Source: a virus. Taken from it: DNA of 46,411 nt. A program made the translations under genes and the position numbers. Below the pieces are notes generated by a model, which was not told the origin of the DNA, did no database searches, and saw only the letters and a program-made list of their open reading frames with translations. The stretch spans positions 1 through 46,411 of IMG/VR virus record IMGVR_UViG_3300037492_000204. One strand, written 5' to 3'. Position 1 is the stretch's first letter, and each line of letters begins with the position of its first letter. This document shows, piece by piece, positions 19,645-42,064 of the stretch.

Positions 19645-22600
19645 ATGGCTGATATCAATCCATCACCTTTAATAGGTAATACAGTAAATCCATTAACTAT
19701 ACAAAACTCTGAGTACAAATTACCAGAAGCACCTATAGCTAATGCATACAAAGGACCTTCTACTGTTTCGCAACAAGATGTTGATAGTTTAAAAACACAA
19801 CCTAAAACAGTATTTGGAGATAAGATTAAAAATCTAGTTCATACATTAGATACTGCACCCGCATGGGGAGCTGATGCAACTCCTTATGGTAAAGTTGTAG
19901 ATTACAATGCTGATTATACAGGATCTAACTTTCAAAGATATTATAGTCACTCTAAGTTCAAAGAGCTTGGGTTCTCTCCATTCAGAGATAACGAAACTCT
20001 TTACAACCAAAAAGGAACCTGGGCAGATGATGCTGGTAGGATGATGAGAGGTTGGGGTAATCTATTTGCAACTGGTGCATATGATGGTATTAAATCTTGG
20101 GGTGATAATCCATTTAATCCAGAAGCTGATACAAGTACTGCAGATGATATGGAACGTAAGATGTCTGTAATGACATCAAGTAAAGGTGGATTTGGTGGTG
20201 GTGTTATTAACTTCGGAGCTAATACTGCTTATTCAATGGGACTTGTTACTGAATTTATGGCGGAGAGTGCTGTACTTGCTGCAGCTACTGCTGTAACATT
20301 TGGTGCTGATATCGAGATAACTGCACCATTAGAAGCTGCTCGTGCTGCAACATTAGCTACAAAGTTAGGTAAGGTTGGTAAGAATATGTCACAAACATAT
20401 AAAACACTTACAGCACTTAAAGATTTAAACACAGCTAAAACTTTTTTCAACTCAGTTAAAGCTGGAGAGACATTAGGTAAAGCTTTAAACTTTATCAATC
20501 CATTAGAAAATACTTTAGAGTTTGCCAAAGATGTTAACAAGGCTATGAAGTCTGGTGAACAAGTTTACAATATGGCCAAAGCATCGAAAGGTATTGGAGC
20601 TTTTATCAAGGACGTAAGACAAACACAAATGGTTATGTCTGAAGCAAACCTTGAAGGTGGATCTGTACAAAACGAAATGGTAAAACAACTTACCAATGAT
20701 TTTTATAAAGAGAATGGTAAGATGCCTGATTCTGAACAATCAGCTGACATATATAAAACTGCACAAATAGCTGGTAACAAAACTATATTATGGAACATGC
20801 CTGCATTATTCCTTAGTAATAAAATAGTTTTTGAGAATGCTTTCAAAGGTTTCAAACCAATGAGAGCACTAGCTGCAGAAAGTTCTGAAGGACTTGCTGG
20901 TAAACTTGTATTTAATAAAGCTTGGAAATCAGCCGCTGTTAATCCATGGTCTGTTGTAGATGATGGATTTAAAAATAGTTTGAAGAGTTTAACTAAAGCT
21001 TCAACTTGGGCCCCAGGTAATCTTGCTAAGAACTTGCTTACAAAAGGTGTTGGATATACAAGTAAGAACTTAACTGAAGCTTTCCAAGAACAATATCAAG
21101 AAGCAGTTGCTGGTTCTATGAAAGAATATTATACTTCACTTTATCAAGATCCTTCGAAAGCAGGATCAGATGAAATGGGAAGTATCTTCACTGATAACTT
21201 ATCTAAACAGTTTACAACTATCCAAGGTTTTGAAACCTTTGCTAGTGGTTTTTTTATGGGCGGTGTATTACAAGGTCCACAAAAACTTGTGTTTGAGAAG
21301 ATCCCTCAAAAGATCTTTAAGATGAAGAACCCTGAAGAATATGCTAAACGTCAACAAGAGAAAAAAGAATGGACCGATAAAGTTGTAGAGTCTTTAAATG
21401 AAGTAACTAAGAATCCAGAAAAATACTTCAATGAAGTATCTGAGAACATGGTTGTTCAAAAGAAGACTGGTAAAACTATGACTGATGCTAATGAGCACAA
21501 TGATGAGAAATCATTCAAAGATGCCGCAGATGAGTCAACGTTTAATCATTTACATACTGTTATCAACTCAGGTAAGTTTGAGCTTGTCTTACAACACTTA
21601 CACGATATGAAACAGTTATCGCCTGACGAGCTTGAAGAAGCTTTCGGTAGTAACCCTGATAAAATAAACAAGTCTTTTTACATCAACAAAATAGATTCTT
21701 TAATAAACAGAGCCAACGAAATAAAAGGAAGAACTGACAAAGTAAATGAACAGTTTGTTAATCCTTTCAATCCATATAAGTTTAATCCTGGAACCGACAC
21801 CAAAAACTTTATAGATGAACAAATCAGATGGAGAGCATACGAAGATGCGAAGAAGACTGCGATATATTCTCAGTACTCTTTCGACAGAACTCTTAACCGT
21901 ATGCAGGATATTATTAAGGATGTAACTAATGACATTCCTGTTTCTAAAGCTAACATGTCTGACTTTAGCTTATTGTTTAATACAGATGATATCAACTCTG
22001 AAATCAATGCGTTAGATGTAGAAATCAAAGCATACTCAGAAGGTACATCTGAACAAAAATCTAAAGCTAAGAAATCAGCTAAGAAAAGAGCAGCATTAGA
22101 ATCTTTACGCGAGAATATTAAACATCATCAAGCTGGTTTAAAAGATCGTAATGATGCTGGAAAGTCTGCAGTAAGAAGTAATGCAACAGCTATTAAACCA
22201 AAGATGAAAGTTAAGATCAACACTGAAGCCGGTGGTACAGGTGTTGTAGAAAAAATCGTTGGTAAATATGCAATCCTTACTGATGGTAAAAAGATCCATA
22301 GAAAAAATCTTGAACCATTAGATAAGAAAAATATTGAGACTAAAGATCATATTGATGATTCATTAGAAACATTATATGAATCTTACAAAGATTATTTAAG
22401 AGTTATTGCTGATATCAATAAAGACCATGTTTTTGATGATAAAGTAAACTCTTCGTTTTCAAAACTAAAAGATTTTTACAGTCTTGAAGCTGACTCAAAT
22501 GATTTAGCTGGCACTGTAAACTTCTTACACAACCCAAGTTCTTTTGTAGAATATTCTAGACGTATGGAAGAGATCCGTAGATCTTTATACGAACGTCGTG

Positions 22601-24066
22601 CTGATCATATGAGAGCAGCACTAGAAGAGTATTTAAAAATAAAAGATCAAAACGAGTTATTAAATCAGTTATTAGAAGATGGTGTTTACATACATCCTGA
22701 TGATGTAAAAGCTTTACTTAACAATAAGATTGTACCAAAAGAATTATTCGATGTTATAACTTACGAAGAGTTAACACCATCTTCTGAAAAATATAAGAAA
22801 GGATTAGAGTCTATAACCAAATGGATAGAAGCTACTAAACCAGTAGAAGAAACAGCTGCTGAAACAACAGATGCTGTTGAACCTGTTACTGAACCTGTTG
22901 ATACAATCAACGTAAAAATAAAAGGTAATACTCCTATTTATGATATGCCTGAAGATTTACGTTCTGAATTAGCTGCTAGTTTTATTAGTGATAATAAACT
23001 TCGTATGGCAGACGGTGAACAACCACGAGTTGGATACAGAGATGGTATGTCAAATGATGAGATTTATCAAATGCCTTCATTTATAAGCTTTGTAAAAACG
23101 TTTAGTAAACCTGCTAAAATCATTAGTGAGTATAATACTAAACATAACAGAACTGTAGAACCAGTGATTGTTGAACCAGTTAAAAAAGAAGAACCTAAAG
23201 TTGCAACTGTTTCTTTAATCATTACAAAAGATATGAGACAACAGTTATCTGATTTAGGTTATTCTAAAGAAGACATTGATAAAATGAGACCTGCACAAGC
23301 TAATCATCTTATCTCTGGTAACATAACTAAACCAGTAAAAGCATTAACACCTGAAGAAGATATCGAAGCAAGAAGAAAGAAAGAGTTTGATGATTTAAAC
23401 GAAAAATTATTAGCTTCTGGTAGAGCTGATGAACCTATATCAGATACTAAACGAAAACAAATCAATGATAAGTATGATGCAGAGTTAGCCGCATTAAACG
23501 AAACACCTGAAGCTATAAAGTCTATTGAAGAATCGTTTAATGAAGCTACTACAATCGAAGAGTTGGAAGCTGCTGAGAATGAAGTTCTTGCTGTACTTGC
23601 AGATCCAGAACAACGTAGAGAACTTAACTTAACCAACGAGTTTATTGTTAATCTTATCGAAAGTAAGAAACGTGAGTTAGCTTTAAGTTTTACTTACGAA
23701 AGTATTCAACCGGGAGATGTTATTATCATGACGAATGATGATAAAATGTTGGTAGTAGAAAAGACCGATACTCAGTTAAAATTGCGTAAATTTGGTGATG
23801 AAACAGAAAATAACAATGTGATTGTTCCAAAAGATCTTGTTGCTACAACTGTAAAATATAAATACAAAGAAGGTATGGAAAATGTTTCTATAAAAACACC
23901 AGTAACTCCGCAAGAAGTTGAAGTATCAAATCAAAGTGTGAAAAACTTTACGGAGTTTAATGAAGACGATGATGCTGATATTGTAGATGAAGATATGGCG
24001 AAAGCTACTAACATGACTAAAGAAGATCGTAACGATGATTTAATTAACAACTTAGGCTGTAAATAA
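19645..24066 (+). CDS. Putative ejected capsid cargo protein with hydrophobic segment, 1473 aa
   Basis: Residues about 185-240 form a long hydrophobic, Ala/Gly-rich stretch (GVINFGANTAYSMGL, then ESAVLAAATAVTFGAD) that could insert in or cross a membrane during DNA ejection. The region to about 600 is helical and moderately hydrophobic. Two small SH3/KOW-like barrels appear near residues 850-895 and 1352-1407, and charged coiled-coil-like helices lie between them. Near 1195-1228 a short helical motif (MRQQLSDLGYSKEDIDKMRP) resembles UBA-like modules of phage giant proteins. The C-terminus is acidic. It lies two bases from both neighbours, so it is probably co-translated with the polymerase gene. 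Function as cargo is inferred. Confidence 0.55.
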   Translation: MADINPSPLIGNTVNPLTIQNSEYKLPEAPIANAYKGPSTVSQQDVDSLKTQPKTVFGDKIKNLVHTLDTAPAWGADATPYGKVVDYNADYTGSNFQRYYSHSKFKELGFSPFRDNETLYNQKGTWADDAGRMMRGWGNLFATGAYDGIKSWGDNPFNPEADTSTADDMERKMSVMTSSKGGFGGGVINFGANTAYSMGLVTEFMAESAVLAAATAVTFGADIEITAPLEAARAATLATKLGKVGKNMSQTYKTLTALKDLNTAKTFFNSVKAGETLGKALNFINPLENTLEFAKDVNKAMKSGEQVYNMAKASKGIGAFIKDVRQTQMVMSEANLEGGSVQNEMVKQLTNDFYKENGKMPDSEQSADIYKTAQIAGNKTILWNMPALFLSNKIVFENAFKGFKPMRALAAESSEGLAGKLVFNKAWKSAAVNPWSVVDDGFKNSLKSLTKASTWAPGNLAKNLLTKGVGYTSKNLTEAFQEQYQEAVAGSMKEYYTSLYQDPSKAGSDEMGSIFTDNLSKQFTTIQGFETFASGFFMGGVLQGPQKLVFEKIPQKIFKMKNPEEYAKRQQEKKEWTDKVVESLNEVTKNPEKYFNEVSENMVVQKKTGKTMTDANEHNDEKSFKDAADESTFNHLHTVINSGKFELVLQHLHDMKQLSPDELEEAFGSNPDKINKSFYINKIDSLINRANEIKGRTDKVNEQFVNPFNPYKFNPGTDTKNFIDEQIRWRAYEDAKKTAIYSQYSFDRTLNRMQDIIKDVTNDIPVSKANMSDFSLLFNTDDINSEINALDVEIKAYSEGTSEQKSKAKKSAKKRAALESLRENIKHHQAGLKDRNDAGKSAVRSNATAIKPKMKVKINTEAGGTGVVEKIVGKYAILTDGKKIHRKNLEPLDKKNIETKDHIDDSLETLYESYKDYLRVIADINKDHVFDDKVNSSFSKLKDFYSLEADSNDLAGTVNFLHNPSSFVEYSRRMEEIRRSLYERRADHMRAALEEYLKIKDQNELLNQLLEDGVYIHPDDVKALLNNKIVPKELFDVITYEELTPSSEKYKKGLESITKWIEATKPVEETAAETTDAVEPVTEPVDTINVKIKGNTPIYDMPEDLRSELAASFISDNKLRMADGEQPRVGYRDGMSNDEIYQMPSFISFVKTFSKPAKIISEYNTKHNRTVEPVIVEPVKKEEPKVATVSLIITKDMRQQLSDLGYSKEDIDKMRPAQANHLISGNITKPVKALTPEEDIEARRKKEFDDLNEKLLASGRADEPISDTKRKQINDKYDAELAALNETPEAIKSIEESFNEATTIEELEAAENEVLAVLADPEQRRELNLTNEFIVNLIESKKRELALSFTYESIQPGDVIIMTNDDKMLVVEKTDTQLKLRKFGDETENNNVIVPKDLVATTVKYKYKEGMENVSIKTPVTPQEVEVSNQSVKNFTEFNEDDDADIVDEDMAKATNMTKEDRNDDLINNLGCK

Positions 24067-24068
24067 TA

Positions 24069-27000
24069 ATGAACTGTGCATTAAACGTAGAACAACAAAG
24101 AGCTTTATTTAGAAAAGTATACGGAGACCTGAATGATACAAAATCATCAGGTCGTCCTTTTTTAGTTAAAGATTATATACAATCTGTATACAACTTGATT
24201 TATACAAAATCTAATGACCATGCTATGGCCTTAGATTACGCGAGACTTGTACCTCATTACATCATGCGTAGTATGATCAAAGATGATTCATTAATGGATC
24301 ACTTGCTCGACTCAGGTTTTAATATGAAAGACATTAACTCTATCAAAAAGAGTTTCACTAATCATATCGATAACGTAGAGAAATATATTGGTAACAACAA
24401 TGAAGCTCTTAAAGAAATAAAAGAGTTGCAAGAACAAGTTATCAAGAACGGTGCTAAGTTAGAACCTAATCCTTTAAAAGTACAAGGATCAAAACCTAAT
24501 CCATCACAAGAGTTTCGTGCTATTCCTCCTACTGCTTTAGCAGATAGAGGACAAGAAGCTTTGTCTTGGAAAGAAGGTGATCCAAACTTTAATGTACCAA
24601 ATCCGGATGTTGCTTTTTACTACAAAGTAAAACGTAAAATATTAGATTTGATAATGGAACCTTCTGCAGACTTCGATAGCAGAAAGATAAACTATCCAGG
24701 ATTTGGGCCAGTGTATTTAACTATCATGTCTTCAAGTAAAATACCAGAAGATCAATTATATCCAGGAACTCCAGTGAACAGTGATGCTCACAAGAAAGGT
24801 GTATCAATGGTTATAACTGATAGCTATGGTATGCCTATGAAGTTTAACAACGACTTAGAAGTTGACTTCAATGGTGGTAAAATGGCTTACTACCATATCA
24901 GAAAAACTGAAGGATTGGTTGATGGTAACAATGTAAATCTTGCACCAGAAGATATGAACTCAGTAGATGCTTTAGTTCGTTCTTCGGGTATCACTCGTGA
25001 TGAAGCTGTAGAAGTTATCAAACAACAAATAAAGTTCATTCATGATTTAAGAGAATACATAAACAAGAATCCTCAAGAGAATGATTTAAAAGCTAATATC
25101 AATGGTGGTTCTTTAGGTTATGCTTACAATGATTATGTAAGAATAAAAAACCCATTGGCTTCTGTTAACTTTGAAGGTGATAACTTTGACCCATTTCAAG
25201 CAAGAGAGAACGATCCTCAAAACGGGTTAGTAAAAGGATTTACTTACTTCTATACTAAAGGTATGCTTGACACTCCTGTTGAGATTAAGTTACCAGAGAT
25301 GAATGCTGAACTTAAAGATAAGTTAGTGTCTTTGTTCGCTGAAGATCTTTATGAAAAAGATCCTTCTGGAAATACTTATTCAGTATCTCCGGCAGACAGA
25401 CAACGTCTTATTGACAACTATATTAAAACAGGCCCAGATACTATACAGTTAATCCCTAACAGCGATAACAAAACTTATGCTGTAATGATTAAGGGTGAGA
25501 AAGTAGATCCGTCTGATCCAATGTTATTCAAACAAGCAATCAATGATTACTTTAATGCAGTAGCTCCATCTAAAACTGTAGCTGCTAATCGTATTCCAAG
25601 TGGTGCTACAATCCTTAAATCTACTGATCCTAGTTATCAGTCAAAGATGAAATCAGGAGATTATGTAGAAATGATTGATAATGGTAAGAGTAAGTTCTAT
25701 CTTGTAGAAGGAAGAAAGTTACATACAAATAACAAGTCTTTGAATAAAGACTTTGATGATGTTTCTTTTGACAAAACTCAAGCCGGTGTAACTTACTTAC
25801 AAAGAACACCTACTCCTTATAACGAGTTCATTCGTCAAAACTTTAACATTGACTATCAACTAAACGGAGAGAACAAACTAGTGAAGCTTAATGCTTACTT
25901 TACGTTTGCTCCTATTGATAGTGAACTAGAAAAAATATATGGTGTTAACGATGCTGTAAAAGAAGCTGAAACAACAACACCAACAGATACAGTGAACAAC
26001 AATAATGGGCCAGCTGATCAGTTAGGTTCTATTGATGATTTACTAAAAGATACTTTCGAAGATCCAGAACTTAACAAGTTATTGGATAACAAAGCGAAAG
26101 GATTACAAGCTACTCTTGATCAAATCAGTGAAGCTAAAACTTGGTATGCGAACCATCCGTTAAGTAAGCAGTTTCCTTTTACCACAATGTTCCATGCTAT
26201 CAACACTAAAAATCCTAATGCAGCTGCAACATGGACTAAGCATGGTATAACATTATTTAAAGGAGCTGACTACAGTGATTTATATCACGAAGCATGGCAT
26301 GCATTCTCACAAACTTTTTTACCTAAAGCAGAAAGAGCTGAGTTATATAATGAAGCTAGAAAACTTTCTGGTAGTTTCGTAGATTACAACGGTAAGAGTG
26401 TTAGATTTAATAAAGCTACAGATCTTCAAATAGAAGAATACTTAGCTGAAGACTTCAGAGAATATGTATTGAAAGGTACAGTTAAGAAAGGATCTCCAAA
26501 AAGAAATAACATATTCAGAAGAATATTAGACTTCTTAAAAACATTATTTGGTAAATCATCTGTTATCGATATTACAGATAACGATAAAGCTCAAGAACTT
26601 ATACATGACTTGTATGAAAAACTTCGTGTAGGTGATTTACATGAGTATAGTTTCAATGCTGAAAACAGAAACTTCGATATACTTAACAAAGGTGTTGGTG
26701 CTGTAAGCTTAACTGAACCACAAAAAAGTCTTGACTATGATAACTCTAAGTTAATGGTTGATACTATTGACTCTTTGATATCTGAATATATCGATAGAGC
26801 TAACATGGGTTTAAATGAAGTTGAGAAACTTCGTGCAGCAGAGCTTACTCGTAAAGCTCAAATCAACTCTATAACTCCAGAAGAAAAATCTGAGTTGACT
26901 GGTTTACAATCACGTCAAAGTTATAAGTATACTTCAAGTATTCTTAAAACAGAAAATGGTTTAAAGAATGCATATAAGTATGCTCAAATACGTTTGGCTA

Positions 27001-30000
27001 CTATCCGTAACCAAATGAATAGTTCTTTAGCTACAGCAAAAGAGTTAGAAAAAGAAAGAATACAAAAGAATGTAGATCTTCTTGATTATGTTATAAGAAA
27101 CTATGGTAACACTGATGTTCTTAGTGACAACAAAGAAGGTAAAGGAATGATTGCTTACCACAAGCTTAAATCAAAATATATCAATCAAGAAGATGTAGAA
27201 GAATTCTTCGAAGAGGAAAACCAATCTGAAGAAGAAAAATACTCTAAAGGTAAAGAAGGATATGATCGCGGTGGTAACGAAACATCGTTTACAGAAATGG
27301 CAAGTAAAGAAGTTCTATACTTGATGAGTAGTTTACATAAAGTAAACGAACAAAACGTTCCTGTATTAAACAAGTTAGGTGTAGCAGAGTTACATGACTT
27401 CGATACTGTTAAAAACAGATTTATAAGAATGTTACAAAACACTCTTAGCATTGAAGATATGTATAACAAACTTTCAATCGAGTCTGATACATTCCCTCCA
27501 GCTAAACAGATCTTAAATAAACTAGGGCCTGTAAGAACTGACAATGCTCGTTCGTTTAATTTATGGACAAGCTTCTGGCAATCATTTAATAAAACAAGAG
27601 TACCTCTTACTCAAATGACTGTTGAGAAAACATCTACTGATGATAATGGTGTTAAGTTAGCTGTACCAACTTATGCTGTAAGAATAGGTGAAGCTTCTGC
27701 TGATTACAAAAAGGTTGGACAGAAGTGGGAAAACTATTTCAAAACAGCGTATGATAATCCTTACATCAAGACTGATAACTTTGGTGCAAACTATTTAGAT
27801 ACTAAAAAGGTTCTAGAAGATTTCCCTCAAAACACTTTAAGTGGTAGAGAGTATGAATTCTTTAGAGCTATTGGTATGAGACTTTCTGACAAGAATGAAA
27901 TACACGATGATATCAGAAAGAAGAATACCGGTAATGCTAAAGCCTTACGTAATGCTTTATTTTTGATCAATCAAAGAGGTAACATTACAGTAGACAGTTT
28001 AGCTTCTATTGTAAAAGAATATCCTGCAATGGTTATCGGTGAACTTTCTTATCCTAAAATACCAGGTGAGAAAAGAAACTACAATAACTTACAAGAGCTT
28101 GAAGCAAGATACTCTGATGACTTTTCTAACTTCATGGTTAGTAATGCTAAAGGAGATCCTCAGTTTGAACACTCTTTAAACAATACATTAACAGTAATGA
28201 TTAACACTATAAACAGTGTTAAGAGTTACGATGATTTAATGCAGATACCACATATGTCTTATCTTGACATAGATCGTAATCCATTTGCTAGTGCTTCTAT
28301 TTGGTTAAACTCTATCTTTGATATGAACAAACCAGGAAGACCTAAACGTAGACAATCTGATGATCCTAAATCACCATTCGTTACAGTTAACTTGAATAAC
28401 TTATCAGGTGTTCTTACAATGGAGAATGGAGAGTCTACAGGAGAAGGTGTTGCTTCTGCTCAAGCTGATGAGTTTACAAAACTGATTTTAGATTTCCACT
28501 TGACTATTGTTAATGGTACACCCGAGTTAATGCGTCATGCTGATAAAGGTACATCATTCTCTGTATGGTTAAGTAACATAAATACTAAATCAGAAAGCAA
28601 GAGATTATATGTTGATACAACTTCTTTCATTTCTATCAATGATCGTATACCAGGATACACTGAAGCTTATTCTTTGGTTATTCCTTACATCAATGCCGAG
28701 CTTAAACGTATCAATGAGATGAAACGTTTATCAGAAACTGGAGTTCAAAACTTTGACTTCGGATATCTTGAACGTGGTAAAGAGTTCGTAATCTTTGATG
28801 ATAACATCTTATCTAAAGATGTGAAACAACAACTATTGGATTTACAAATACCTTTAGAAGATTATTTAAAAACAAATACACCAGAGTCTAATAATCTTAA
28901 TGCTGAAATATTCAAAGGGTTTGTAAACTACATGAATACTCAAAGCAAGAACATTGATGCTAAGTTTACTGAAGCTAAGTTCGTTGCTGACAGTGTGATC
29001 ACTACTATCAAATCTGAAGCTTCTAAGAAACAAATCAAAAATGTTAACGAAGTATCTGCATACAATGCCGCGGTAACCTCGTTTGCTTTCAATAACTGGA
29101 TACACAATATAGAGTCTTTAATATTCTTGTATGGTGATTTAGCTTTATACAAAGACTTACATAAACGTATTGCAGGTACAGCTTCTACTGGAGATATTTT
29201 CCGTACGGATAAAGCTGCTGTTGATTATGTAAACAAAGTTCTTGGTAGTAAATATGCTGAACAAATGAACATACCATCTCAACCATTTGATGGTACATTC
29301 AATACAGCTGTAATGACTGATAACGAAATCGGTTCAGAATATTACAAAGAGTATTTAAAAGCTATCGGAGATGAGAAAGCAGCTAAAGCTTATGCTGATG
29401 GTCAAATGAATGAAGGTGATGCTCAAGGTTGGATTACTTTTGATGCATATAGAACTTTATTAAATCTAGAAGGTAAATGGCTTGACGAACACGAAAAGCT
29501 ATACATGAAACTTGTAAAAGGAGAAGATGTAAATACTAGAGATATAACTAAGTTCTTCCCAACTAAAAAAGTACAATACTTCGGCCCACTTGATACACAA
29601 GGGTTGCCGGTTACAGCTTTCCATAAGTTTTCATTATTCCCTTTAATACCTAGTGTAATCAAAGGAACTAATCTTGAGAACTTACACAAGAAAATGATGA
29701 CTAACAATACACATTATGCATTGTTTAAATCTGGTTCTAAAGTAGCTACCATTACTAAATCTGGTAAGACTGATAAGTTTTATGAGAATGGTAAGACTCG
29801 TAAGTTATCAGAAGAGACTTTTACAAACAACAAAGTATTCTTAGAGTTCTTAAAAGATCAGTTAGAGATTGCACCTAAGTATAAAAACAAAGTTATATTC
29901 TCTACTCAGTTAAGAAAGCTTGTTGAAAATGGTTTGATGGAAAACAAAGTTCCTATCGACTTTAGAACTGACTTATCGTTAAATGATAAACGTGCAGAGT

Positions 30001-33000
30001 GGGATAAGTTATCTGAAACAGATAAACGAAAAAACTCAGACATATATACTCAGATATCAAACTATGAAAACAATCTGAACAAACTGAACGAAGTTAAAAA
30101 GAAAGAACTTCTTAAAGAAGCAGGTTGGAAAATGGAAAACGGCACACCTACTGGTAGTGTTGAGAACTTGTTATCGTTTGTGTCAAAAGAATTAGCTAGA
30201 CAAGATCTTTCAGATCATGAGTTAGACTTCATACAAGTTGGACCTGATGGTCAAATCAAACATGATTTGTCTATGTCTTTAAGTGCAGACAAAATAGAAA
30301 AGTTATTGAATGCTATCGTAAACAAAAGACTTGTTAAACAAAAAGTTAACGGAGAAGGTCTTATCCAAGTCTCTGGTGCAGGTTTCGAAAAGCTTGATGC
30401 TTATACTAATCCAGAAGAAAAAGATCTTGCTAAATGGGGTACAAATGATTTACCTACTTACCACAAAGGTACAGATGGTAAAACAACTGCTATGAAAGTT
30501 AAGATCGCAATGCAAGGTCAGTTCGAGAAATTATTAGACTTACCTTCTGTTAAAGATTATGCTTATAGTAAAAACATCGATAGATTGGCTGCGTTGAATG
30601 CTTTATTAAAAGATGAAGACTGGTTAAATCAAAACGAGAACCGTAGAGCAGTAACCATGGTTGGTGTACGTATTCCGGTACAAGGATTAAACTCTATGGA
30701 GTTTATGGAAGTGTTTGAGTTCTTACCTAAGTATGCAGGAAACATTATTGTTCCTCCAGCTGAGATCGTAGCTAAGTCTGGTTCCGATTTCGATATTGAT
30801 AAGTTGACAGTTATGATGCCAACTTTCAGATACGTGGATGGTATATTAGAAGTAGCAAGACAATACAGTGAGAAATCATTGAGAGATCTTTATGAAAAAA
30901 CTAAGAAAGCTAAACTTGAAGCTGGCTTATTAAAAGACAGTCAAGGTAAAGTTATATCAAGAGATTCTAACAGAATTGTAGATGGTGAACTTAAACAGCT
31001 TGATATGTATTATTATAACGACTTGATCAAGAATATATTTGGATTTGATCCAGATGTATTAGATCAAGAACTTATTGATGAGATTCTATCAGAAGAAAAG
31101 ATGCCAACTTACGAAGAGTTTTCTGAAAAGATAAACGGTTCTAAATCTATTGAGAACGATATCATTTGGAACATTCGTGAGATATTAGAATCTCCTATAA
31201 ACTATTCTAAACTTATAAAACCAAATGGTACGTATAGTGTTGAACCTTTAGCACAACAGTTGAAGAATAAAGTAATGACTTACAATCCTAAGAAGGGTGT
31301 ATTTAATCAAGCAAATGATAAGATCTCTACAAGTAGATTATTAGAATACACTCACAACTTAGACGTGCATTCTTCTAATAACATTGGTAAAGAAACTTTA
31401 GGTTTAGGTGCTGTTGATAATACATACAATTCTATATTCAATAGGATCGGTGCAAAGCTGAATAAATCTTATACCCAAGGTAAAGGTAACCAAGCTTACA
31501 ATAAACGATTAACTATTCTTTTACCACACAACACTGTTAAGACAGGAAACGAAGATGTAATATCTTTATCTCACATTATGGATAAAGACAATGTAAACGA
31601 CATATCAGACATCATCTCTCAATTGATGAATGGTTGGGTGGATATTGCTAAAGATGCTTGGATATTCAATATCCAGGGTAATAAAGAGATAGCTCCTTCT
31701 TTATTGTTTATGGTGCAGGCTGGTGTTCCATTTAAGCATGCTGTTTATTTGGTATCTCAACCATTGATTAGAGAATACGTTAAACAACAAAAACTTGCTA
31801 AGAGTACATTTGCTGAACCATTAGGTAAAGCTGCAACCAATCCATCATTCTTTAGAAGTAAAGCAAGAGAAGTTATTTTAGAAAACCCTAAGTTTGGTTT
31901 CAAGATAGTTAAGAACACTAAAGGAGTTATAACTGATAAAGCTATTTACGAAGAGACAGTTAAGTTGACTGATGCTAATCCTAATGCATTCGATATGAAT
32001 GAGCTTGAGAAAGTGATTGACAACTATGCTAGTGATGTTGAACATGGAATTGCTCACCAGTATACTGATGCAGAACGTGCTACATTCTTACACTTCTTAG
32101 AACTTGAAAACATATCTAGATCTGTTGCTAAAGTTAAGATGACTTTAAATGTAGATACATCTATTTCTAAAACATTGTTTGAAGCAGAAAGCTTAAAAGT
32201 AAAAATCATTGACTTAGAAAACGATGGTATCATAGACAAAGATATTGTTAACAATGTTAAAACTGGTTCACCAATATCTTCATTCTTTATATATGATTTT
32301 CAGAATGAGATCTGGAAAGACTTATTCAAGTTGAGAAATCATCCTGTATTAAACAAGTTTTTAGTAAATAAGTTTAGAGATGGTAATAAAGAACAAGTTG
32401 ATAAGACATTCGGAGATAACGAAAAGTTTGCCAATGAGTTCAGAAATGACTTCATGAGTTTCATATTCCAAAATACTGTAAAAGATTTTGATATAAACTC
32501 TGCATCATACAAAGGATTAAACATCGATGAAATCAAAGTTAGTCCTGTAGCTAGTTTACAGTTCGGTGCTATTGTTAAAGATTCTATTTTATATGTTGAT
32601 AAAGATCAGCTTAAAAAAGACTTCACAAGAAAAACATATTCAACTGAAGACTATACTAAAAAAGGATTGGCGATGTTGCCTGCGAATGCATTCCCTTACG
32701 ACAGAGATTACTATAAGTTTGTATTCGAAAGAGAATCATTAAGAGCTTTATATCCTATTGATAAGTTGACTCAATCTGAAGACTACCAAGATAAGTATGA
32801 GCATAACTTAAGTAACCATAAAAATCGTTTAGAAAACGAAACAGAACAATCATTCGTTAAACGTATGCGTGGTGTTACTTACGAAGAGATGCTTAGAGAT
32901 ATGGCTTTAGATAATACATTCAACAGCTGGAAGATCTTTAACAGTAACAATAGTTATGCTGATCAGTTTTTACGTATACGCGAGAAGTATCCTGAATTAT

Positions 33001-34112
33001 CTGCTGACTACAACATCATTAAGAGTTTGTCTTTATCGTTGAGTAAGACTGGATTTAAAAATCTTAAGTTGAACGATACTTTATTAGATGCAGATAAGAT
33101 CAATGTGTTACATGAAAACTTACTGGCTTTATCTAATCCTTCTGTTAAGAAAGTAAATGACCCAATCGAGAACGAAAGAATCAGTTTGTTCTTCTCTAGA
33201 TTTTCTACATATGCTTTCTTACAATCTGGATTAAATGTTAAGAGTAGTTTTTCTTTAGTTAGACTTGTTCCTCAAGATAACTTTGTTAGGATAATGGAAG
33301 AACCAGTTAAAGAATATATCAAGAACTTAAACGATTTGACTTTAGAAAAGTATTATAACAGATTCTTATCTGTTAACGATATTGCTAATAGTAAAACTCG
33401 TATTCGTTTTAAAGATTATGCTATTAACAACTCGAATGTTAATAAAGAATCTAAGTTAGGTTTAGTTAAAAAAGATGATGTTGACGGAGATATCTTAGCT
33501 ACAACAAAGAATGATTTATTTTCAGAAGATTATGTAGGTAACTTAATATACGACGCTCAAGATCTTAAGATATCAACTGCAAAAGAATTAGCAGAGAGTA
33601 ACAAAGATATAACATTTATATATAACGATGCTACAGTTTCTAGAATCAATGCTGCAAAATATGACTTCTCTTTAGCTGAAGCTTCAAATACACTTGGTAA
33701 CGTATTTGGTATACCTACCAGAAAAGCATTTGCTGGAACAGATACTTCATTCAGTGATGTATTAAGTGAAGCAGGTGTGCACATGATTGACCCTAAAAAC
33801 AAAGCTATCATCGACAATGCTATACAAGCTTTAATCAAACTAAAAAATGATGGAGCTACCTTGGCATTTAGTAAAGCTGGTTACGGTCAATACATGCTTG
33901 GGGCCGATGATTCTAATGGAGCAAATCCTAGTATCGCAAGAGCAAAAGCTCCAAAAACTTTCTTATATTTGTCTGAGCAGTTATTTAGAAACTTCGGTTA
34001 TAAAAACCCTAACTATATTGATACTGCAACCGGCCGTAAAGTCATTCAATCTACACAAGAGGTTAGTGATGAAATGGTAAAAGATATGTTAAACCACTGT
34101 TTTAATTCATAA
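24069..34112 (+). CDS. Giant virion RNA polymerase with zincin metallopeptidase domain, 3347 aa
   Basis: The RNA polymerase signature is DFDID at residues 2240-2244, within SGSDFDIDKLTVMMP. The aspartates would bind the catalytic metal, as in phi14:2 gp66 and YonO-like two-barrel polymerases. An RIP triplet at 2201-2203 lies 39 residues before the motif, much like the RxP segment before NADFDGD in cellular beta-prime. Lysines 1887 and 1891 (LFKSGSKVA) are candidates for the first-barrel catalytic lysines. A zincin motif, HEAWH (740-744), is followed by EEYLAEDFREYV near 793-804, which could supply the third metal ligand. In crAss-like phages this polymerase is packaged and injected to transcribe early genes. 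At 3347 aa it is much longer than phi14:2 gp66 (about 2,180 aa), which suggests fusion of units that are separate in relatives. The polymerase call is strong; the protease call is moderate. Confidence 0.85.
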   Translation: MNCALNVEQQRALFRKVYGDLNDTKSSGRPFLVKDYIQSVYNLIYTKSNDHAMALDYARLVPHYIMRSMIKDDSLMDHLLDSGFNMKDINSIKKSFTNHIDNVEKYIGNNNEALKEIKELQEQVIKNGAKLEPNPLKVQGSKPNPSQEFRAIPPTALADRGQEALSWKEGDPNFNVPNPDVAFYYKVKRKILDLIMEPSADFDSRKINYPGFGPVYLTIMSSSKIPEDQLYPGTPVNSDAHKKGVSMVITDSYGMPMKFNNDLEVDFNGGKMAYYHIRKTEGLVDGNNVNLAPEDMNSVDALVRSSGITRDEAVEVIKQQIKFIHDLREYINKNPQENDLKANINGGSLGYAYNDYVRIKNPLASVNFEGDNFDPFQARENDPQNGLVKGFTYFYTKGMLDTPVEIKLPEMNAELKDKLVSLFAEDLYEKDPSGNTYSVSPADRQRLIDNYIKTGPDTIQLIPNSDNKTYAVMIKGEKVDPSDPMLFKQAINDYFNAVAPSKTVAANRIPSGATILKSTDPSYQSKMKSGDYVEMIDNGKSKFYLVEGRKLHTNNKSLNKDFDDVSFDKTQAGVTYLQRTPTPYNEFIRQNFNIDYQLNGENKLVKLNAYFTFAPIDSELEKIYGVNDAVKEAETTTPTDTVNNNNGPADQLGSIDDLLKDTFEDPELNKLLDNKAKGLQATLDQISEAKTWYANHPLSKQFPFTTMFHAINTKNPNAAATWTKHGITLFKGADYSDLYHEAWHAFSQTFLPKAERAELYNEARKLSGSFVDYNGKSVRFNKATDLQIEEYLAEDFREYVLKGTVKKGSPKRNNIFRRILDFLKTLFGKSSVIDITDNDKAQELIHDLYEKLRVGDLHEYSFNAENRNFDILNKGVGAVSLTEPQKSLDYDNSKLMVDTIDSLISEYIDRANMGLNEVEKLRAAELTRKAQINSITPEEKSELTGLQSRQSYKYTSSILKTENGLKNAYKYAQIRLATIRNQMNSSLATAKELEKERIQKNVDLLDYVIRNYGNTDVLSDNKEGKGMIAYHKLKSKYINQEDVEEFFEEENQSEEEKYSKGKEGYDRGGNETSFTEMASKEVLYLMSSLHKVNEQNVPVLNKLGVAELHDFDTVKNRFIRMLQNTLSIEDMYNKLSIESDTFPPAKQILNKLGPVRTDNARSFNLWTSFWQSFNKTRVPLTQMTVEKTSTDDNGVKLAVPTYAVRIGEASADYKKVGQKWENYFKTAYDNPYIKTDNFGANYLDTKKVLEDFPQNTLSGREYEFFRAIGMRLSDKNEIHDDIRKKNTGNAKALRNALFLINQRGNITVDSLASIVKEYPAMVIGELSYPKIPGEKRNYNNLQELEARYSDDFSNFMVSNAKGDPQFEHSLNNTLTVMINTINSVKSYDDLMQIPHMSYLDIDRNPFASASIWLNSIFDMNKPGRPKRRQSDDPKSPFVTVNLNNLSGVLTMENGESTGEGVASAQADEFTKLILDFHLTIVNGTPELMRHADKGTSFSVWLSNINTKSESKRLYVDTTSFISINDRIPGYTEAYSLVIPYINAELKRINEMKRLSETGVQNFDFGYLERGKEFVIFDDNILSKDVKQQLLDLQIPLEDYLKTNTPESNNLNAEIFKGFVNYMNTQSKNIDAKFTEAKFVADSVITTIKSEASKKQIKNVNEVSAYNAAVTSFAFNNWIHNIESLIFLYGDLALYKDLHKRIAGTASTGDIFRTDKAAVDYVNKVLGSKYAEQMNIPSQPFDGTFNTAVMTDNEIGSEYYKEYLKAIGDEKAAKAYADGQMNEGDAQGWITFDAYRTLLNLEGKWLDEHEKLYMKLVKGEDVNTRDITKFFPTKKVQYFGPLDTQGLPVTAFHKFSLFPLIPSVIKGTNLENLHKKMMTNNTHYALFKSGSKVATITKSGKTDKFYENGKTRKLSEETFTNNKVFLEFLKDQLEIAPKYKNKVIFSTQLRKLVENGLMENKVPIDFRTDLSLNDKRAEWDKLSETDKRKNSDIYTQISNYENNLNKLNEVKKKELLKEAGWKMENGTPTGSVENLLSFVSKELARQDLSDHELDFIQVGPDGQIKHDLSMSLSADKIEKLLNAIVNKRLVKQKVNGEGLIQVSGAGFEKLDAYTNPEEKDLAKWGTNDLPTYHKGTDGKTTAMKVKIAMQGQFEKLLDLPSVKDYAYSKNIDRLAALNALLKDEDWLNQNENRRAVTMVGVRIPVQGLNSMEFMEVFEFLPKYAGNIIVPPAEIVAKSGSDFDIDKLTVMMPTFRYVDGILEVARQYSEKSLRDLYEKTKKAKLEAGLLKDSQGKVISRDSNRIVDGELKQLDMYYYNDLIKNIFGFDPDVLDQELIDEILSEEKMPTYEEFSEKINGSKSIENDIIWNIREILESPINYSKLIKPNGTYSVEPLAQQLKNKVMTYNPKKGVFNQANDKISTSRLLEYTHNLDVHSSNNIGKETLGLGAVDNTYNSIFNRIGAKLNKSYTQGKGNQAYNKRLTILLPHNTVKTGNEDVISLSHIMDKDNVNDISDIISQLMNGWVDIAKDAWIFNIQGNKEIAPSLLFMVQAGVPFKHAVYLVSQPLIREYVKQQKLAKSTFAEPLGKAATNPSFFRSKAREVILENPKFGFKIVKNTKGVITDKAIYEETVKLTDANPNAFDMNELEKVIDNYASDVEHGIAHQYTDAERATFLHFLELENISRSVAKVKMTLNVDTSISKTLFEAESLKVKIIDLENDGIIDKDIVNNVKTGSPISSFFIYDFQNEIWKDLFKLRNHPVLNKFLVNKFRDGNKEQVDKTFGDNEKFANEFRNDFMSFIFQNTVKDFDINSASYKGLNIDEIKVSPVASLQFGAIVKDSILYVDKDQLKKDFTRKTYSTEDYTKKGLAMLPANAFPYDRDYYKFVFERESLRALYPIDKLTQSEDYQDKYEHNLSNHKNRLENETEQSFVKRMRGVTYEEMLRDMALDNTFNSWKIFNSNNSYADQFLRIREKYPELSADYNIIKSLSLSLSKTGFKNLKLNDTLLDADKINVLHENLLALSNPSVKKVNDPIENERISLFFSRFSTYAFLQSGLNVKSSFSLVRLVPQDNFVRIMEEPVKEYIKNLNDLTLEKYYNRFLSVNDIANSKTRIRFKDYAINNSNVNKESKLGLVKKDDVDGDILATTKNDLFSEDYVGNLIYDAQDLKISTAKELAESNKDITFIYNDATVSRINAAKYDFSLAEASNTLGNVFGIPTRKAFAGTDTSFSDVLSEAGVHMIDPKNKAIIDNAIQALIKLKNDGATLAFSKAGYGQYMLGADDSNGANPSIARAKAPKTFLYLSEQLFRNFGYKNPNYIDTATGRKVIQSTQEVSDEMVKDMLNHCFNS

Positions 34113-34113
34113 T

Positions 34114-37100
34114 ATGAACAACGTTTGTCCAAATATAAACACACCAGAATGGAAAGCTTTAGAGAAGTCTGTAGGTCGATTTGAAGCAATGAAAGACTGG
34201 ATGGAAAACAAAGGAGAAATAAGAACTCCTGAAGAAGTGAAAGCTAAACTATTAGCGAGAGATGAAGAATATGCTGACATCATCGCTAAGAAAGAAGCTG
34301 CTGATTTAAAACAAGAACTGAAAGAACCTGAGAAGTTATTCAAGGAAGAACTCAAACTTGTAAAGAAACAACTAAGCTTTGCAGAAAGATCTTCTGTTAT
34401 AAACCGTGTACAAGCTGCCAATCAAAAGTTGGGTACATCCTTTAAGATTTTCTTTACCCCAATAGGTCAAGCTAATTTGTTTACCTGGGAGATAAAAGAT
34501 ATGAGAGGATCTGCATCAGCTCAAACTAAAATAAGTTTCCACCGTGATGCTACATTAGAAGAATACAGTGATGAGAATATTACTGAGTTTCCAGAAATGA
34601 ATGTAGTATCAACAGATACTGCTAGATCCTTAGAAATCGTTTCTAAGTTATCTCAAACATTAGCTGAACAAGTAGGAGTTGATTATCAAGTACTGACTCC
34701 TAATGAAGCAAAAGAAATAACTAAGGATGCACAAAACCCATGGAATGGTGAGAGTGCTTTCTTCATTGGAGATATTGTATACTTTGTTGGAGACAATCTT
34801 AATACTGAAAAAGTATTCCATGAGTTTGCTCATCCTATCTTTAGAGCATTATCTAAATCAAACAATGATACTTTCAATAAGCTTTATGAAAAACTAAAAG
34901 GTTCATCTGAAGGATTAACAATAATCCAACAAGTAAAAGATTTATATCCAGAACTAAGCGAAGATCAAGACTTATTTAAAGAAGAATGTCTTGTTAGATC
35001 TTTAGCAACTGATGCCAACAATAAGTTCTTGAAACAACAAAGCTCTACAGGATTTGAAAAGTTTGTAAACGATTTGTTGTATTCATTGAAACAACTCTTA
35101 AGAAAGATGTTTGGAATATCAGTTGATGTTTCTAAACTAGATAGTACTACAACTATTGATCGATTAGGAGAGATGTTAGTAGCAGGTAAAAAGTTTGATA
35201 TCTTTACAGAACAAGTTTCTGATGAAGATATTGTTGCTTACGTAAGAGATCAACAAAGTTACATCGATGATGTAATGAAGATCAGTCCTGCAGATATTCA
35301 AGCAATGACCAATCGTGGTTTTGATATTGCATCTAAACACATTGAGGTTGTTCTTAAAAATAAAAACTATGCTGAGATGGTTAATATCTTGGCCGATGAA
35401 TACAACCGAGGTGACCTTCAAGAAATACGTAAGAACTTATCAGCATACAAAACAGATCTTGTAGATAAGACTGAAAAGCTTGGTAAAGATATTGACTATA
35501 CAAGAAACCAAACATCGGCTCTTGTTAATACATTATTCCGTCTTGATAGTATGACTAAAAAAATACTATTACACATGGAAGATATTTCCAAACAACCGGA
35601 CAATATCGACAACCTTCATAAAGCTTACTATTATGATTACTTGTTAAAATACTGGGAACAGTTTGTAGCTGAAGCAAAAACAAACCTAGATAACAATCGA
35701 GTTGATTCAAACTCTCCTTTATCACAATTATTATCTAGTATTGATACATCTATTCGTCGTTCGAAAGATTTAACAAACACTATGTTTACAAAAGGTGTTA
35801 AAGATGTTTTATCTCAAGAGTTAGCACCTATGGCTAAATCTATTGATGAAAAGTATAACAACATCATCAATAACTTGAAAGCTAAAGGAGCTAACAAACA
35901 AATCATCGATCGTTGGACTAAAGAATACGAAAGTGTAAAGATAACTCCAGATAAAATAGAAAAGCTTTTAAGAGGTGAACTTGGTGATGCTAATGCATTC
36001 AATGCTTTCTTCGAAGGTTATATGTACAGTAGTGATCCGATCGTCGGAGGTATGGCTTTATATGTAAAGAACCAAATGAATGAGGTATTAGTTAAAGCAC
36101 AATCAAGCTATAACCACTTTGCATCTAAGATGGAACCATTGTTAAAAGATATCAACTTCAGTGCTTCTAAAGCAGGAGAACTTGGTAAACAAGTAGGTTT
36201 CATTGATTCAGTAGGAACAAGAGATGAAGAAGGAAACTTTGTAGAAAAGAAAGTATGGTCATTATTAAATCCATACAAGAACTACCGTTTTAAACAAGAT
36301 GAAACAAGACATAAGATAGAGCAAGCACAAAGTAAATATTCTGAAACACATTCTGATGAAGATCGTTTAGCTGTTATAAACTTAATAGCTGAAAACAAAA
36401 AACATCTTCGTGAGTTTTTCAATCAAGAGTATGTTACTGAGTTCTACGATCGTCAACGTTTATTAGAAGACGATGATATCGGTAAAGAAGCTGGTTACGA
36501 ACGTGACAGAATCTTTGAAGAGATGAGATTATTATCTGAGCCAGCTACATCTGAAATGGATGTGTTTGCTATATCAGATCAAATCGATTCTTTATGGAGA
36601 GAATACAGACAGTTACATTCTTTATTAGATCTTAATGGAGCTAAGAAAGAAGGTAAAGATTTAGAAATTGCACAAAGACTTCGCGAATATCGTGATGCTT
36701 CATATAAGTTCTACGAGTTCAAAGAAAGAACTGGTGTGTTCCAAAATGCATTAAACTCTTTTGAACAAGAACTTGTAGATAAAGGTTATGCTAAAGATGG
36801 TGATGACTTCAAAGCATTAAGAGAAGAATGGTTGAAGAAGAATACACGTATTGTTATCAAGCCTGAATTCTATGAAAGACGAAATGAAATCTTTGATCGT
36901 ATTCAACAAATCACATCAAGACTTCCTGATAACGAAAGAAAGAAAGTAGACTTCACTGAAGCTTGGCAAGATATCTTAGATGCTGTTGCTGGATTCAGAG
37001 ATGATGATGGCCAGCCTATTGGTACAGATATGAGTGAAGGTCGTATTGAAATCGTTAAAAAAAGACAAGAAGAAATCATAAAAGCTCAAGAAGCTTTTGC

Positions 37101-39822
37101 TGGATTATCAGGATTAACTCCTTCTGAAAGTACAACTTTATCTGAGATGTTTGCTATAATAAAAGCAGGCGATAAACTATCAAAAGAAGATAGAGATATA
37201 TTCAATAGTTTATTGAAGAAGAAAGATGAACTTGGTTTAAACAAATACGAAAAGACTGAGTTATTCAGTTTGTTCGAAGAGTTAAAAGAGTTACAAAGAA
37301 AAGAAGCAACAGATTACTATTTAGATATTGTAAATAACTACTTGTCTAAGTTAGATACAAATAAGTTATTCATTGAAACAGGATCCAGACTCATCACTAA
37401 AGATGGATCAGATATGATCTTGAAAGATTTCATAGTTAATGACTTGATGAAACAGAGTCCTGAGTTTGAGGCCTGGTTTACTAAGAACCACATACGTAAG
37501 TCTTTTTACAACAAGATAGATGGAGTACAAGAAGAACGTTGGGAAAGACTATACATATGGAACGTAGTAAAACCTAACGATCCTAAGTTCATGGAGAAGA
37601 CTGACATCATGGATTCCAATGGAGAGTTTGTAGAACAAATCGTAGGTCTCCCTGTAATGAAATACTATGCTCGTATTGTAAAACCTGAGTATAGAAATCA
37701 AAGAGTTGTTGGTGAAACTGTAGATAACCGTGGTAACTGGTTACCTAAAAGTATGATGCAAGGTGCTACAGACGAAAGATATCGTAACGAAGCATATCAT
37801 GACTTACAAAAGAATGATCCTAAGATGTTCGAAGTGTTGAAAGCATTAACTGAACAACACTTGAAATCACAAGAAGGGTTAAGCAGAAAGAGTAAGTTAT
37901 ATCTTGACATGCCAAGATTTAGAAAGGGTTCTCTTGAAACATTACAAACAAGAAATGTTCTTGGAGAAAAAATGAGTGCAATGACTCTTTATGCTAAAAG
38001 AGTTAAAGATTTCTTTAGAGGTGCTAAGGATGATGCTGAATCAGGATACAATGCACACGATGAGTTTAACTTAGTTCGTGCAGATATGTTTGATGATGAA
38101 GTTAGCAGTATTCCTATCGCTGGTTTATATGACTTAAATGTTGATGAAGTATCTACAGATATTACAGAGACAATGATGCGTTATATGTTATCTGCAGAAA
38201 GACAAAAGAAACTTGTTGAAATAAGTCCAGTTGCTCAAGCTTTAAAAAGTGTTGTAAACAATCCTAAAAATAAGGCCAAGCAAATGGATAAAGTTAATCA
38301 GTTCAACTTTGTCAATAGAGGTGTTACAACTTACTTGAACAAGAAAGGTAAATACGTAAGACAAACTGCAGTGAACAACTTTATCGAAAGAGAGTTTGAA
38401 GGTAAAACTCAAACCGGGTTTGCTCAAGAAACACCATGGATCAATAACACGGCCAACATTTTGTTCAAACGTGCATCATTAGGTTTCTTCGCGGTAAACA
38501 TTCCTTCTGCGTTAAAGAATACAATGGGAGCTAAGTTCCAAGGTATGATCGAAGCAGCTGCAGGTCAATATATGAACATGCAATCTTTTACCAAAGGTGA
38601 AGGTTGGGCATTCAATACAATGGGAACTATTAGTTTCGAAGTTTACAAACAGGGCCCTAAGAGTCACAACGTTCAAATGGTTGAACTATTTGATCCAGCA
38701 CAAGGTAGATTTGAAGAAAACTTTGGTGAGTCAATGTCAAGAGGTGTTGCTAAAGATGTAGCTAACTTGACTATGTTATATAACTTCCGTAAGTGGACAG
38801 AGTTACAAGCTACTTTACATACGTTTGCTGGTATGATGTACTTCCAAAAAGTAAAGCAAGATGGTAAGGAAATAAACTACATGGATGCTTGGGAAACAAT
38901 CGATGGTAAAATACAACTTAAAAAAGGTATAGACCCTACTTGGGGTGTCACATATGATGCAGACGGTAACATGCTTGTAGGAGCTGAGTTCAAAAGAATG
39001 AAGAACCAGATACAACAAGTGATGAATAACTTGAACGGAGCTTATTCTAGATTCGATCAACCAGAAGCTCAACGATACATTGCATTCAAGTTTATATCTT
39101 ATTTGAGAAGATACTTTACTACCATGGCCGTAAACAGATGGGGCTTCTCTGGATCCATAGCTCACCCAATGGCGAGACTAAATCCAGGACTTGGAACAAC
39201 AACTGAAGGATGGTATATATCAACTCTTAAACTTATGGTAAGAACTGTAAGAAGTGGTGGTAAATATTTATCGTACATGACTCCTGAAGAGAAAAGAGGT
39301 TTCATAAAAGTGGTAACTGAAGTAGGAAGTCTTATTGCAATCAATGCACTTATGGCTCCATTGTTTGGATGGGATCCAGATGATGAAGAAAAGTATGCTA
39401 AGTTACGCGAGAAGTCTGGCCCATTACCGTTCCCGTTTGTATCAGCAAATGAACCTGAGTTTAAACTAAACGGTTACTTAGAGAACCATGCATTAATGTT
39501 AATGATGAACATACGTTCTGAAAACGAACAGTTTGCTCCATTCCCTAACATGGGTAACTATAAACAAATGTTAGATGTTAAGTCTGTAGCATTCGGTCCT
39601 ACTTTAGATGCATATTCTCAAGTGTTTGATGACTTAGTTAACATATACCAAGAGAAAGATGTAGCATACTATAAACGTAGAGTTGGACCTTATGAATGGC
39701 AACAACAAGAGTCAGCTAAAGTATGGGCTCATATGTTTAAAACAATAGGATTAACTGGTAATACACTTGATCCTGCAACAGCTATTAAAAACTTCCAATC
39801 AGTACAAGCAAGAGCTAAATAA
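34114..39822 (+). CDS. Giant ejected virion protein with second zincin motif, 1902 aa
   Basis: A zincin HEFAH motif sits at residues 236-240 in VFHEFAHPIFRAL. Acidic residues follow at about 290 (EECLVRS), and then LLRKMFG, the same order as around HEAWH in the 3347-aa protein. Residues about 400-1150 are long charged helices, probably coiled coil. The C-terminal third (about 1440-1900) resembles domains found near the ends of phage large polyvalent proteins, with Trp/Tyr/Phe-rich helices and a moderately hydrophobic stretch (about 1730-1755, IKVVTEVGSLIAINALMAPLFGW) that may contact membrane. It starts one base after the polymerase stop. Likely roles are packaging, cleavage or membrane passage of the cargo. 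Peptidase activity is inferred from one motif and context. Confidence 0.65.
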   Translation: MNNVCPNINTPEWKALEKSVGRFEAMKDWMENKGEIRTPEEVKAKLLARDEEYADIIAKKEAADLKQELKEPEKLFKEELKLVKKQLSFAERSSVINRVQAANQKLGTSFKIFFTPIGQANLFTWEIKDMRGSASAQTKISFHRDATLEEYSDENITEFPEMNVVSTDTARSLEIVSKLSQTLAEQVGVDYQVLTPNEAKEITKDAQNPWNGESAFFIGDIVYFVGDNLNTEKVFHEFAHPIFRALSKSNNDTFNKLYEKLKGSSEGLTIIQQVKDLYPELSEDQDLFKEECLVRSLATDANNKFLKQQSSTGFEKFVNDLLYSLKQLLRKMFGISVDVSKLDSTTTIDRLGEMLVAGKKFDIFTEQVSDEDIVAYVRDQQSYIDDVMKISPADIQAMTNRGFDIASKHIEVVLKNKNYAEMVNILADEYNRGDLQEIRKNLSAYKTDLVDKTEKLGKDIDYTRNQTSALVNTLFRLDSMTKKILLHMEDISKQPDNIDNLHKAYYYDYLLKYWEQFVAEAKTNLDNNRVDSNSPLSQLLSSIDTSIRRSKDLTNTMFTKGVKDVLSQELAPMAKSIDEKYNNIINNLKAKGANKQIIDRWTKEYESVKITPDKIEKLLRGELGDANAFNAFFEGYMYSSDPIVGGMALYVKNQMNEVLVKAQSSYNHFASKMEPLLKDINFSASKAGELGKQVGFIDSVGTRDEEGNFVEKKVWSLLNPYKNYRFKQDETRHKIEQAQSKYSETHSDEDRLAVINLIAENKKHLREFFNQEYVTEFYDRQRLLEDDDIGKEAGYERDRIFEEMRLLSEPATSEMDVFAISDQIDSLWREYRQLHSLLDLNGAKKEGKDLEIAQRLREYRDASYKFYEFKERTGVFQNALNSFEQELVDKGYAKDGDDFKALREEWLKKNTRIVIKPEFYERRNEIFDRIQQITSRLPDNERKKVDFTEAWQDILDAVAGFRDDDGQPIGTDMSEGRIEIVKKRQEEIIKAQEAFAGLSGLTPSESTTLSEMFAIIKAGDKLSKEDRDIFNSLLKKKDELGLNKYEKTELFSLFEELKELQRKEATDYYLDIVNNYLSKLDTNKLFIETGSRLITKDGSDMILKDFIVNDLMKQSPEFEAWFTKNHIRKSFYNKIDGVQEERWERLYIWNVVKPNDPKFMEKTDIMDSNGEFVEQIVGLPVMKYYARIVKPEYRNQRVVGETVDNRGNWLPKSMMQGATDERYRNEAYHDLQKNDPKMFEVLKALTEQHLKSQEGLSRKSKLYLDMPRFRKGSLETLQTRNVLGEKMSAMTLYAKRVKDFFRGAKDDAESGYNAHDEFNLVRADMFDDEVSSIPIAGLYDLNVDEVSTDITETMMRYMLSAERQKKLVEISPVAQALKSVVNNPKNKAKQMDKVNQFNFVNRGVTTYLNKKGKYVRQTAVNNFIEREFEGKTQTGFAQETPWINNTANILFKRASLGFFAVNIPSALKNTMGAKFQGMIEAAAGQYMNMQSFTKGEGWAFNTMGTISFEVYKQGPKSHNVQMVELFDPAQGRFEENFGESMSRGVAKDVANLTMLYNFRKWTELQATLHTFAGMMYFQKVKQDGKEINYMDAWETIDGKIQLKKGIDPTWGVTYDADGNMLVGAEFKRMKNQIQQVMNNLNGAYSRFDQPEAQRYIAFKFISYLRRYFTTMAVNRWGFSGSIAHPMARLNPGLGTTTEGWYISTLKLMVRTVRSGGKYLSYMTPEEKRGFIKVVTEVGSLIAINALMAPLFGWDPDDEEKYAKLREKSGPLPFPFVSANEPEFKLNGYLENHALMLMMNIRSENEQFAPFPNMGNYKQMLDVKSVAFGPTLDAYSQVFDDLVNIYQEKDVAYYKRRVGPYEWQQQESAKVWAHMFKTIGLTGNTLDPATAIKNFQSVQARAK

Positions 39823-41325: not shown

Positions 41326-41335
41326 ACTTTTTGGG

Positions 41336-42052: not shown

Positions 42053-42064
42053 AAGCAAATATAC

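Follow-up and report, generated by a model that had tools for sequence, protein, structure and literature searches.

A single 3347-aa chain encoded in the window, a 46,411-base IMG/VR virus record, joins a predicted zincin peptidase to a predicted two-barrel virion RNA polymerase of the crAss-like type. The ORF at 24069-34112 (+) is open across all 3347 codons and free of stops. The preliminary description had placed a zincin HExxH and the motif DFDID in this same uninterrupted ORF, and this is borne out by the translation, by the motif positions and by all testable chains of the clade (71/71). The crAss-like phages rank among the most abundant human gut viruses, and their polymerase is virion cargo that must traverse a narrow tail. 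The features of the chain are as follows.

24069-34112 (+): 3347-aa ORF with a variable N-terminal region, zincin 1, a predicted two-barrel virion RNA polymerase and a C-terminal region
24069-25988 (+): aa 1-640, N-terminal region, poorly conserved, fold unassigned (alignment, HHalign)
26091-26708 (+): aa 675-880, zincin 1, gluzincin-like, followed by an amphipathic helix (alignment, AF2, HHalign, profile)
26286-26300 (+): aa 740-744, HEAWH, predicted zinc-binding helix (motif scan, alignment, model)
26433-26450 (+): aa 789-794, EEYLAE, invariant glutamates of which one is the predicted third zinc ligand (alignment)
26688-31835 (+): aa 874-2589, region homologous to phi14:2 gp66 (6VR4) (BLASTP, AF2 match, profile)
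30786-30800 (+): aa 2240-2244, DFDID, predicted metal-binding catalytic loop of the polymerase (motif scan, alignment, 6vr4 profile match)
31650-31652 (+): K2528, nearly invariant lysine in NGWVDIAKD, candidate second-barrel lysine (alignment, profile)

Same-composition shuffles contain HE..H in 3.6% and DFD.D in 5.8% of cases. With a chance rate of a few percent per shuffle, single motifs are weak evidence and conservation therefore had to decide. For the 3347-aa chain, neither PHROGs nor Pfam returned a usable match, and phmmer against the PDB found none. As a single-protein query against viral contigs the whole chain likewise matched nothing, and the zincin alignment offered no stretch of sufficient conservation for scanning the collection, while an alignment-based search succeeded. 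This profile scan of IMG/VR yielded 80 loci, giving 81 chains with the window, of which 77 are distinct and a few are near-identical copies; the nearest relative is ~60% identical to the window chain in the polymerase region. HE[ASG][WFYL]H lies upstream of DFD[VI]D within one ORF in each of the 71 chains that reach far enough (window counted), at a spacing of 1344-1774 aa (median 1509). The remaining 10 of the 81 chains start at a contig edge, too near to judge, and the zincin motif is absent from none. As the clade was collected via the polymerase motif and not via HExxH, the retention count for HExxH is not circular. When the 66 long chains were aligned (window included), H740, E741, H744, E789, E790, A793 and E794 were at least 95% invariant, as were D2240, F2241, D2242 and D2244. 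Since the ORF is common to many independent contigs, it is not an assembly artefact. A third D.D.D, DVDGD at aa 3137, was rejected as a site; conservation around it is poor, and it probably arose by chance.

In a quick tree, the window falls within a large clade of uncultured phages that is distinct from Suoliviridae, Intestiviridae and most Steigviridae; cr108_1 sits on a long branch close to the base of this clade. In cr108_1 (L097, MT774385), a group I intron at 20375-20693 (RF00028, 80 bits) interrupts the polymerase gene at the GSDFDxD/DFDID loop. The fusion is not special to the window but widespread, and is also found in deposited Suoliviridae (cr118_1, cr1_1, cr4_1 and cr50_1).

DFDID is part of a predicted crAss-like two-barrel RNA polymerase. 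A profile built from 17 sequences of the window's clade, with phi14:2 left out, matched only 6vr4 in the PDB (E 6.7e-27), through GSDFDID and a later VDNAKDP stretch, which upholds the earlier designation of DFDID as the RNA polymerase site. BLASTP matched phi14:2 gp66 with an E-value of 1.6e-29, and in tblastn against phages the polymerase region matched crAss-like polymerases including phi14:2 gp66 and p-crAssphage gp44. From model residue 275 (aa 874) onwards, an AF2 model covering aa 600-1180 corresponds to residues 97-340 of 6vr4 (Z 8.5), so the polymerase would start directly behind zincin 1. Homology to 6VR4 implies a predicted double-psi beta-barrel fold around DFDID. K2528 is aligned with the lysine of the phi14:2 VDNAKDP stretch, and we infer that it would be the second-barrel lysine. 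N4 itself has a T7-like, single-subunit polymerase; such an N4-like (T7-type) polymerase was considered and rejected here, the polymerase region matching 6VR4 only.

For zincin 1, the same AF2 model places HEAWH on a helix at 138-150 and the glutamates on a helix at 186-203 (model numbering). The HExxH helix itself is moderately confident, pLDDT falls below 50 directly before HEAWH, and the model has no confident adjoining sheet. As the stretch before HEAWH is of low confidence, the predicted fold rests on the conservation pattern and on homology, not on the model, which matches known zincins weakly (Z 4.0). A profile match to PPEP-1 is also weak (E 0.4), and no peptidase family of Pfam was consistently matched by the zincins. 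In tblastn against phages, the zincin region matches crAss-like cargo proteins. A profile detected the zincin 1 domain in Suoliviridae, cr108_1, cr112_1 and Dulem 41, and HHalign detected it in Dulem 42. Intestiviridae proteins carry an HExxH domain at the corresponding position, with no significant HHalign match to zincin 1. The domain was not found in phi14:2 gp67 or Fpv20 and is thus not essential at that position. Taken by its sequence, zincin 1 appears catalytically intact and is a predicted peptidase. The shuffle rate of HE..H and the missing confident sheet beside HEAWH would also suit an HEAWH that arose by chance on a helix of an all-helical cargo protein, with no zincin fold at all. 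This is extremely improbable, given that HEAWH is invariant across the clade, that the domain is homologous to zincins of Steigviridae, Suoliviridae and Dulem viruses, and that it aligns with the well-modelled second zincin described below. Conservation, the model helix and HHalign together point to a gluzincin-like domain, in agreement with the original naming of HEAWH as a zincin motif.

The second zincin lies in the next cargo protein, whose ORF starts 1 base downstream of the 3347-aa ORF.

34114-39822 (+): polymerase-associated protein, 1902 aa, relative of phi14:2 gp65 (sequence comparison)
34489-35328 (+): zincin 2 domain, modelled as aa 126-405 (alignment, AF2, profile, structural match)
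34819-34833 (+): HEFAH, aa 236-240 of the downstream protein
34984-34986 (+): E291 of the downstream protein, invariant, predicted third zinc ligand (alignment, model)

E291 follows HEFAH at 55 residues. The AF2 model of zincin 2 (mean pLDDT 83.6, core above 90) shows the zincin order of helix, strands, HExxH helix and glutamate helix. Its top structural matches according to VIA are all gluzincins of the lethal-factor-like or Pro-Pro-endopeptidase type (Z 7.8-5.4); the Z of 7.8 is within the range on which this tool cautions, and the top rows are mutually coherent. Foldseek on its own did not rank matches to this model meaningfully. In HHalign, the alignment of zincin 1 with zincin 2 spans HExxH, EE and the next helix, with a probability of 86.8 and an E-value of 4.3e-6, a value for a single pair that is uncorrected for database size, which suggests that the two domains are distantly related by common descent. 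HExxH is kept in 63/63 full zincin 2 profile matches of the clade, a count that is partly biased by a profile built from HExxH-bearing copies. Four loci (L010, L011, L031 and L037) have an additional zincin copy within the polymerase-associated protein. The downstream protein of cr118_1 (L002, 23225-28225) matches zincin 2 with an HHalign probability of 98, has lost HExxH and is probably inactive. The first ~45 aa of the window's downstream protein (34114-34260) are conserved in close relatives as a possible packaging signal, and the stretch behind them differs through insertions as long as ~650 aa.

The genome context is a crAss-like tail and cargo module, with CrAss_Ring_1 at 7491-8462 and a virion structural protein at 8449-13386; the polymerase ORF is located after the tail/stabilisation genes, in the cargo module. 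Upstream of it lies a further cargo ORF.

19645-24066 (+): 1473-aa ORF related to the N-terminal part of the zincin-carrying cargo protein of Steigviridae (HHalign probability 97.8, E 6.7e-13)

Across the families the order cargo, zincin, polymerase and associated protein is fixed, and the gene boundaries shift along it. In cr112_1, Dulem 41 and p-crAssphage, the zincin is in the cargo gene and the polymerase in a separate gene. The cargo protein of crAss001 and of 'tikkala' has its zincin at the end. One gene comprises cargo, zincin and polymerase in Suoliviridae. In the window's clade, a separate 1473-aa protein is followed by the zincin-polymerase chain and by the associated protein with zincin 2, and the distance between the start of the chain and the zincin motif ranges over 204-1757 aa. 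HHalign comparison found no match for aa 1-640 in other crAss-like families. The idea that this region is the C-terminal part of a known cargo protein found no support in HHalign and was rejected. Elsewhere in the window, a MoxR-type AAA ATPase at 44061-45245 (-) adjoins a protein at 42610-44058 (-) with a weak, sub-threshold VWA match, and a GIY-YIG endonuclease and a phosphoribosyl-ATP pyrophosphohydrolase-like ORF lie side by side at 41336-42058 (-) and 40942-41433 (-) as overlapping predicted ORFs.

In the window's phage, the chain would be made late, packed in the capsid, and threaded partly unfolded through the tail to refold in the cytoplasm of the host; there, the polymerase would transcribe early genes. 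The predicted peptidase, delivered together with the polymerase, would then cleave host proteins or other ejected cargo in trans after ejection, and its fusion to the polymerase would mainly be a route to packaging and delivery. We give this reading about an even chance of being correct. Other groups have shown polymerase activity for phi14:2 and presence in virions for phi14:2 and crAss001, and tail passage with refolding is a published model. The crAss001 cargo proteins gp47, gp49 and gp50 are present in virions (PMC10172136). Action in trans is suggested by the zincin being kept, joined or unjoined, and by a second, related zincin in the next cargo protein. Against this reading, no measured peptidase activity for any crAss-like zincin was found in the literature searched.

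Alternatively, the zincin may cut its own chain, at the zincin-polymerase junction or upstream of it, during capsid maturation or after ejection, in which case fused and split lineages would yield the same mature proteins. The gene boundaries of related phages do lie on either side of the zincin, aa 921-960 behind it form a variable insert of low occupancy, and model confidence is low at model residues 229-274. Furthermore, autoprocessing has been proposed for the zincins in polyvalent phage proteins, e.g. P1 DdrB (Iyer et al. 2017, PMC5512222). However, HExxH is intact in cr112_1, where the zincin and polymerase genes are on opposite strands, and in Dulem virus 41, so freeing the polymerase cannot be the sole job of the zincin, and the comparative evidence leans against polymerase release as its only purpose. 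In N4, the zincin-bearing virion polymerase is packaged unprocessed (PMC5512222), and its size after ejection is given as ~3500 residues (PMC12633501). An injected polymerase that is still packaged whole with its zincin favours delivery of the peptidase along with the polymerase and action in trans. Self-cleavage, the main rival, is consequently not favoured, and we regard it as rather unlikely.

A third reading takes the zincin as a relic that holds a metal or a packaging fold, its catalysis being immaterial. In this respect, the N4 region with the zincin domain is required for encapsidation (PMC5512222), and the second zincin of cr118_1 still matches the domain profile despite the loss of its HExxH. 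A scaffold should, however, occasionally lose the general-base glutamate, and HExxH is retained throughout the clade in both zincin 1 (71/71) and the full zincin 2 matches (63/63), which makes a relic distinctly improbable. It is also conceivable, if unlikely, that the two gluzincins flanking the polymerase are an injected processing system that cuts the cargo after ejection into identical mature parts, or cuts host targets in favour of phage transcription. If so, a peptidase cutting into the same mature parts may explain the sliding gene boundaries.

An apparently intact peptidase travelling with the polymerase, clade-wide and in gut relatives, is a candidate for cargo maturation or early host attack. 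If its target lies outside the zincin-polymerase junction, peptidase activity would be expected to persist in those split lineages that have cultured members. The zincin-polymerase combination is already present in deposited genomes and, as a principle, in the literature for N4. Among the papers searched, none was found on a crAss-like virion polymerase with a metalloprotease or on a crAssphage zincin, and none that describes a second zincin or sliding gene boundaries; Yutin 2018 and Drobysheva 2021 may contain earlier mentions. As p-crAssphage gp45 is already annotated as 'putative RNAP associated protein fused to zincin protease', the zincin seems to have been noticed by the time of those papers.

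Among known systems, the Suoliviridae chains cr118_1 gp14 (4946 aa), cr1_1 gp076 (4551 aa), cr4_1 gp26 (4491 aa, TAG-recoded) and cr50_1 gp059 (4774 aa) are alike in having an HEAFH zincin and a DFD[VI]D polymerase in a single chain, ~1430-1490 aa apart. They differ by a long cargo region fused in front, with ~1660-2000 aa before HExxH, whereas the cargo N-terminus of the window seems to be the separate 1473-aa ORF. In p-crAssphage, the zincin-bearing cargo protein gp45 similarly adjoins the polymerase gp44; however, its zincin and its polymerase are encoded separately, the polymerase is joined to a different subunit instead, and the zincin has diverged so far that it does not match zincin 1 significantly (HHalign probability 30). 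With phi14:2 gp66 (6VR4), the window shares the polymerase region and DFDID. The length of 2180 aa given for gp66 in the preliminary description is right, but as the sole yardstick this zincin-free protein is misleading: the zincin is part of the adjacent cargo protein, which some families encode on its own and others as a fusion. In phi14:2 that neighbour, gp67, also lacks a zincin, and gp65 has HEIMH at 245. The C-terminus of gp67 (L004, 21811-27201) is by eye a candidate GNAT acetyltransferase. Flavobacterium phage Fpv20, which has a cultured host, encodes a 4419-aa chain (L090, 12469-25725) with DYDID in place of DFDID at 3240 and HEVIH at 4197, near its end. The lethal-factor-like (ATLF) and Pro-Pro endopeptidase gluzincins share HExxH and a glutamate in the next helix with the crAss-like zincins, but no significant sequence match. 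Finally, the N4-like virion RNA polymerase is likewise an injected giant polymerase with a zincin-like HExxH MPTase domain (PMC5512222, PMC12633501); in N4 the zincin lies behind the polymerase, whereas in the window zincin 1 lies before it.
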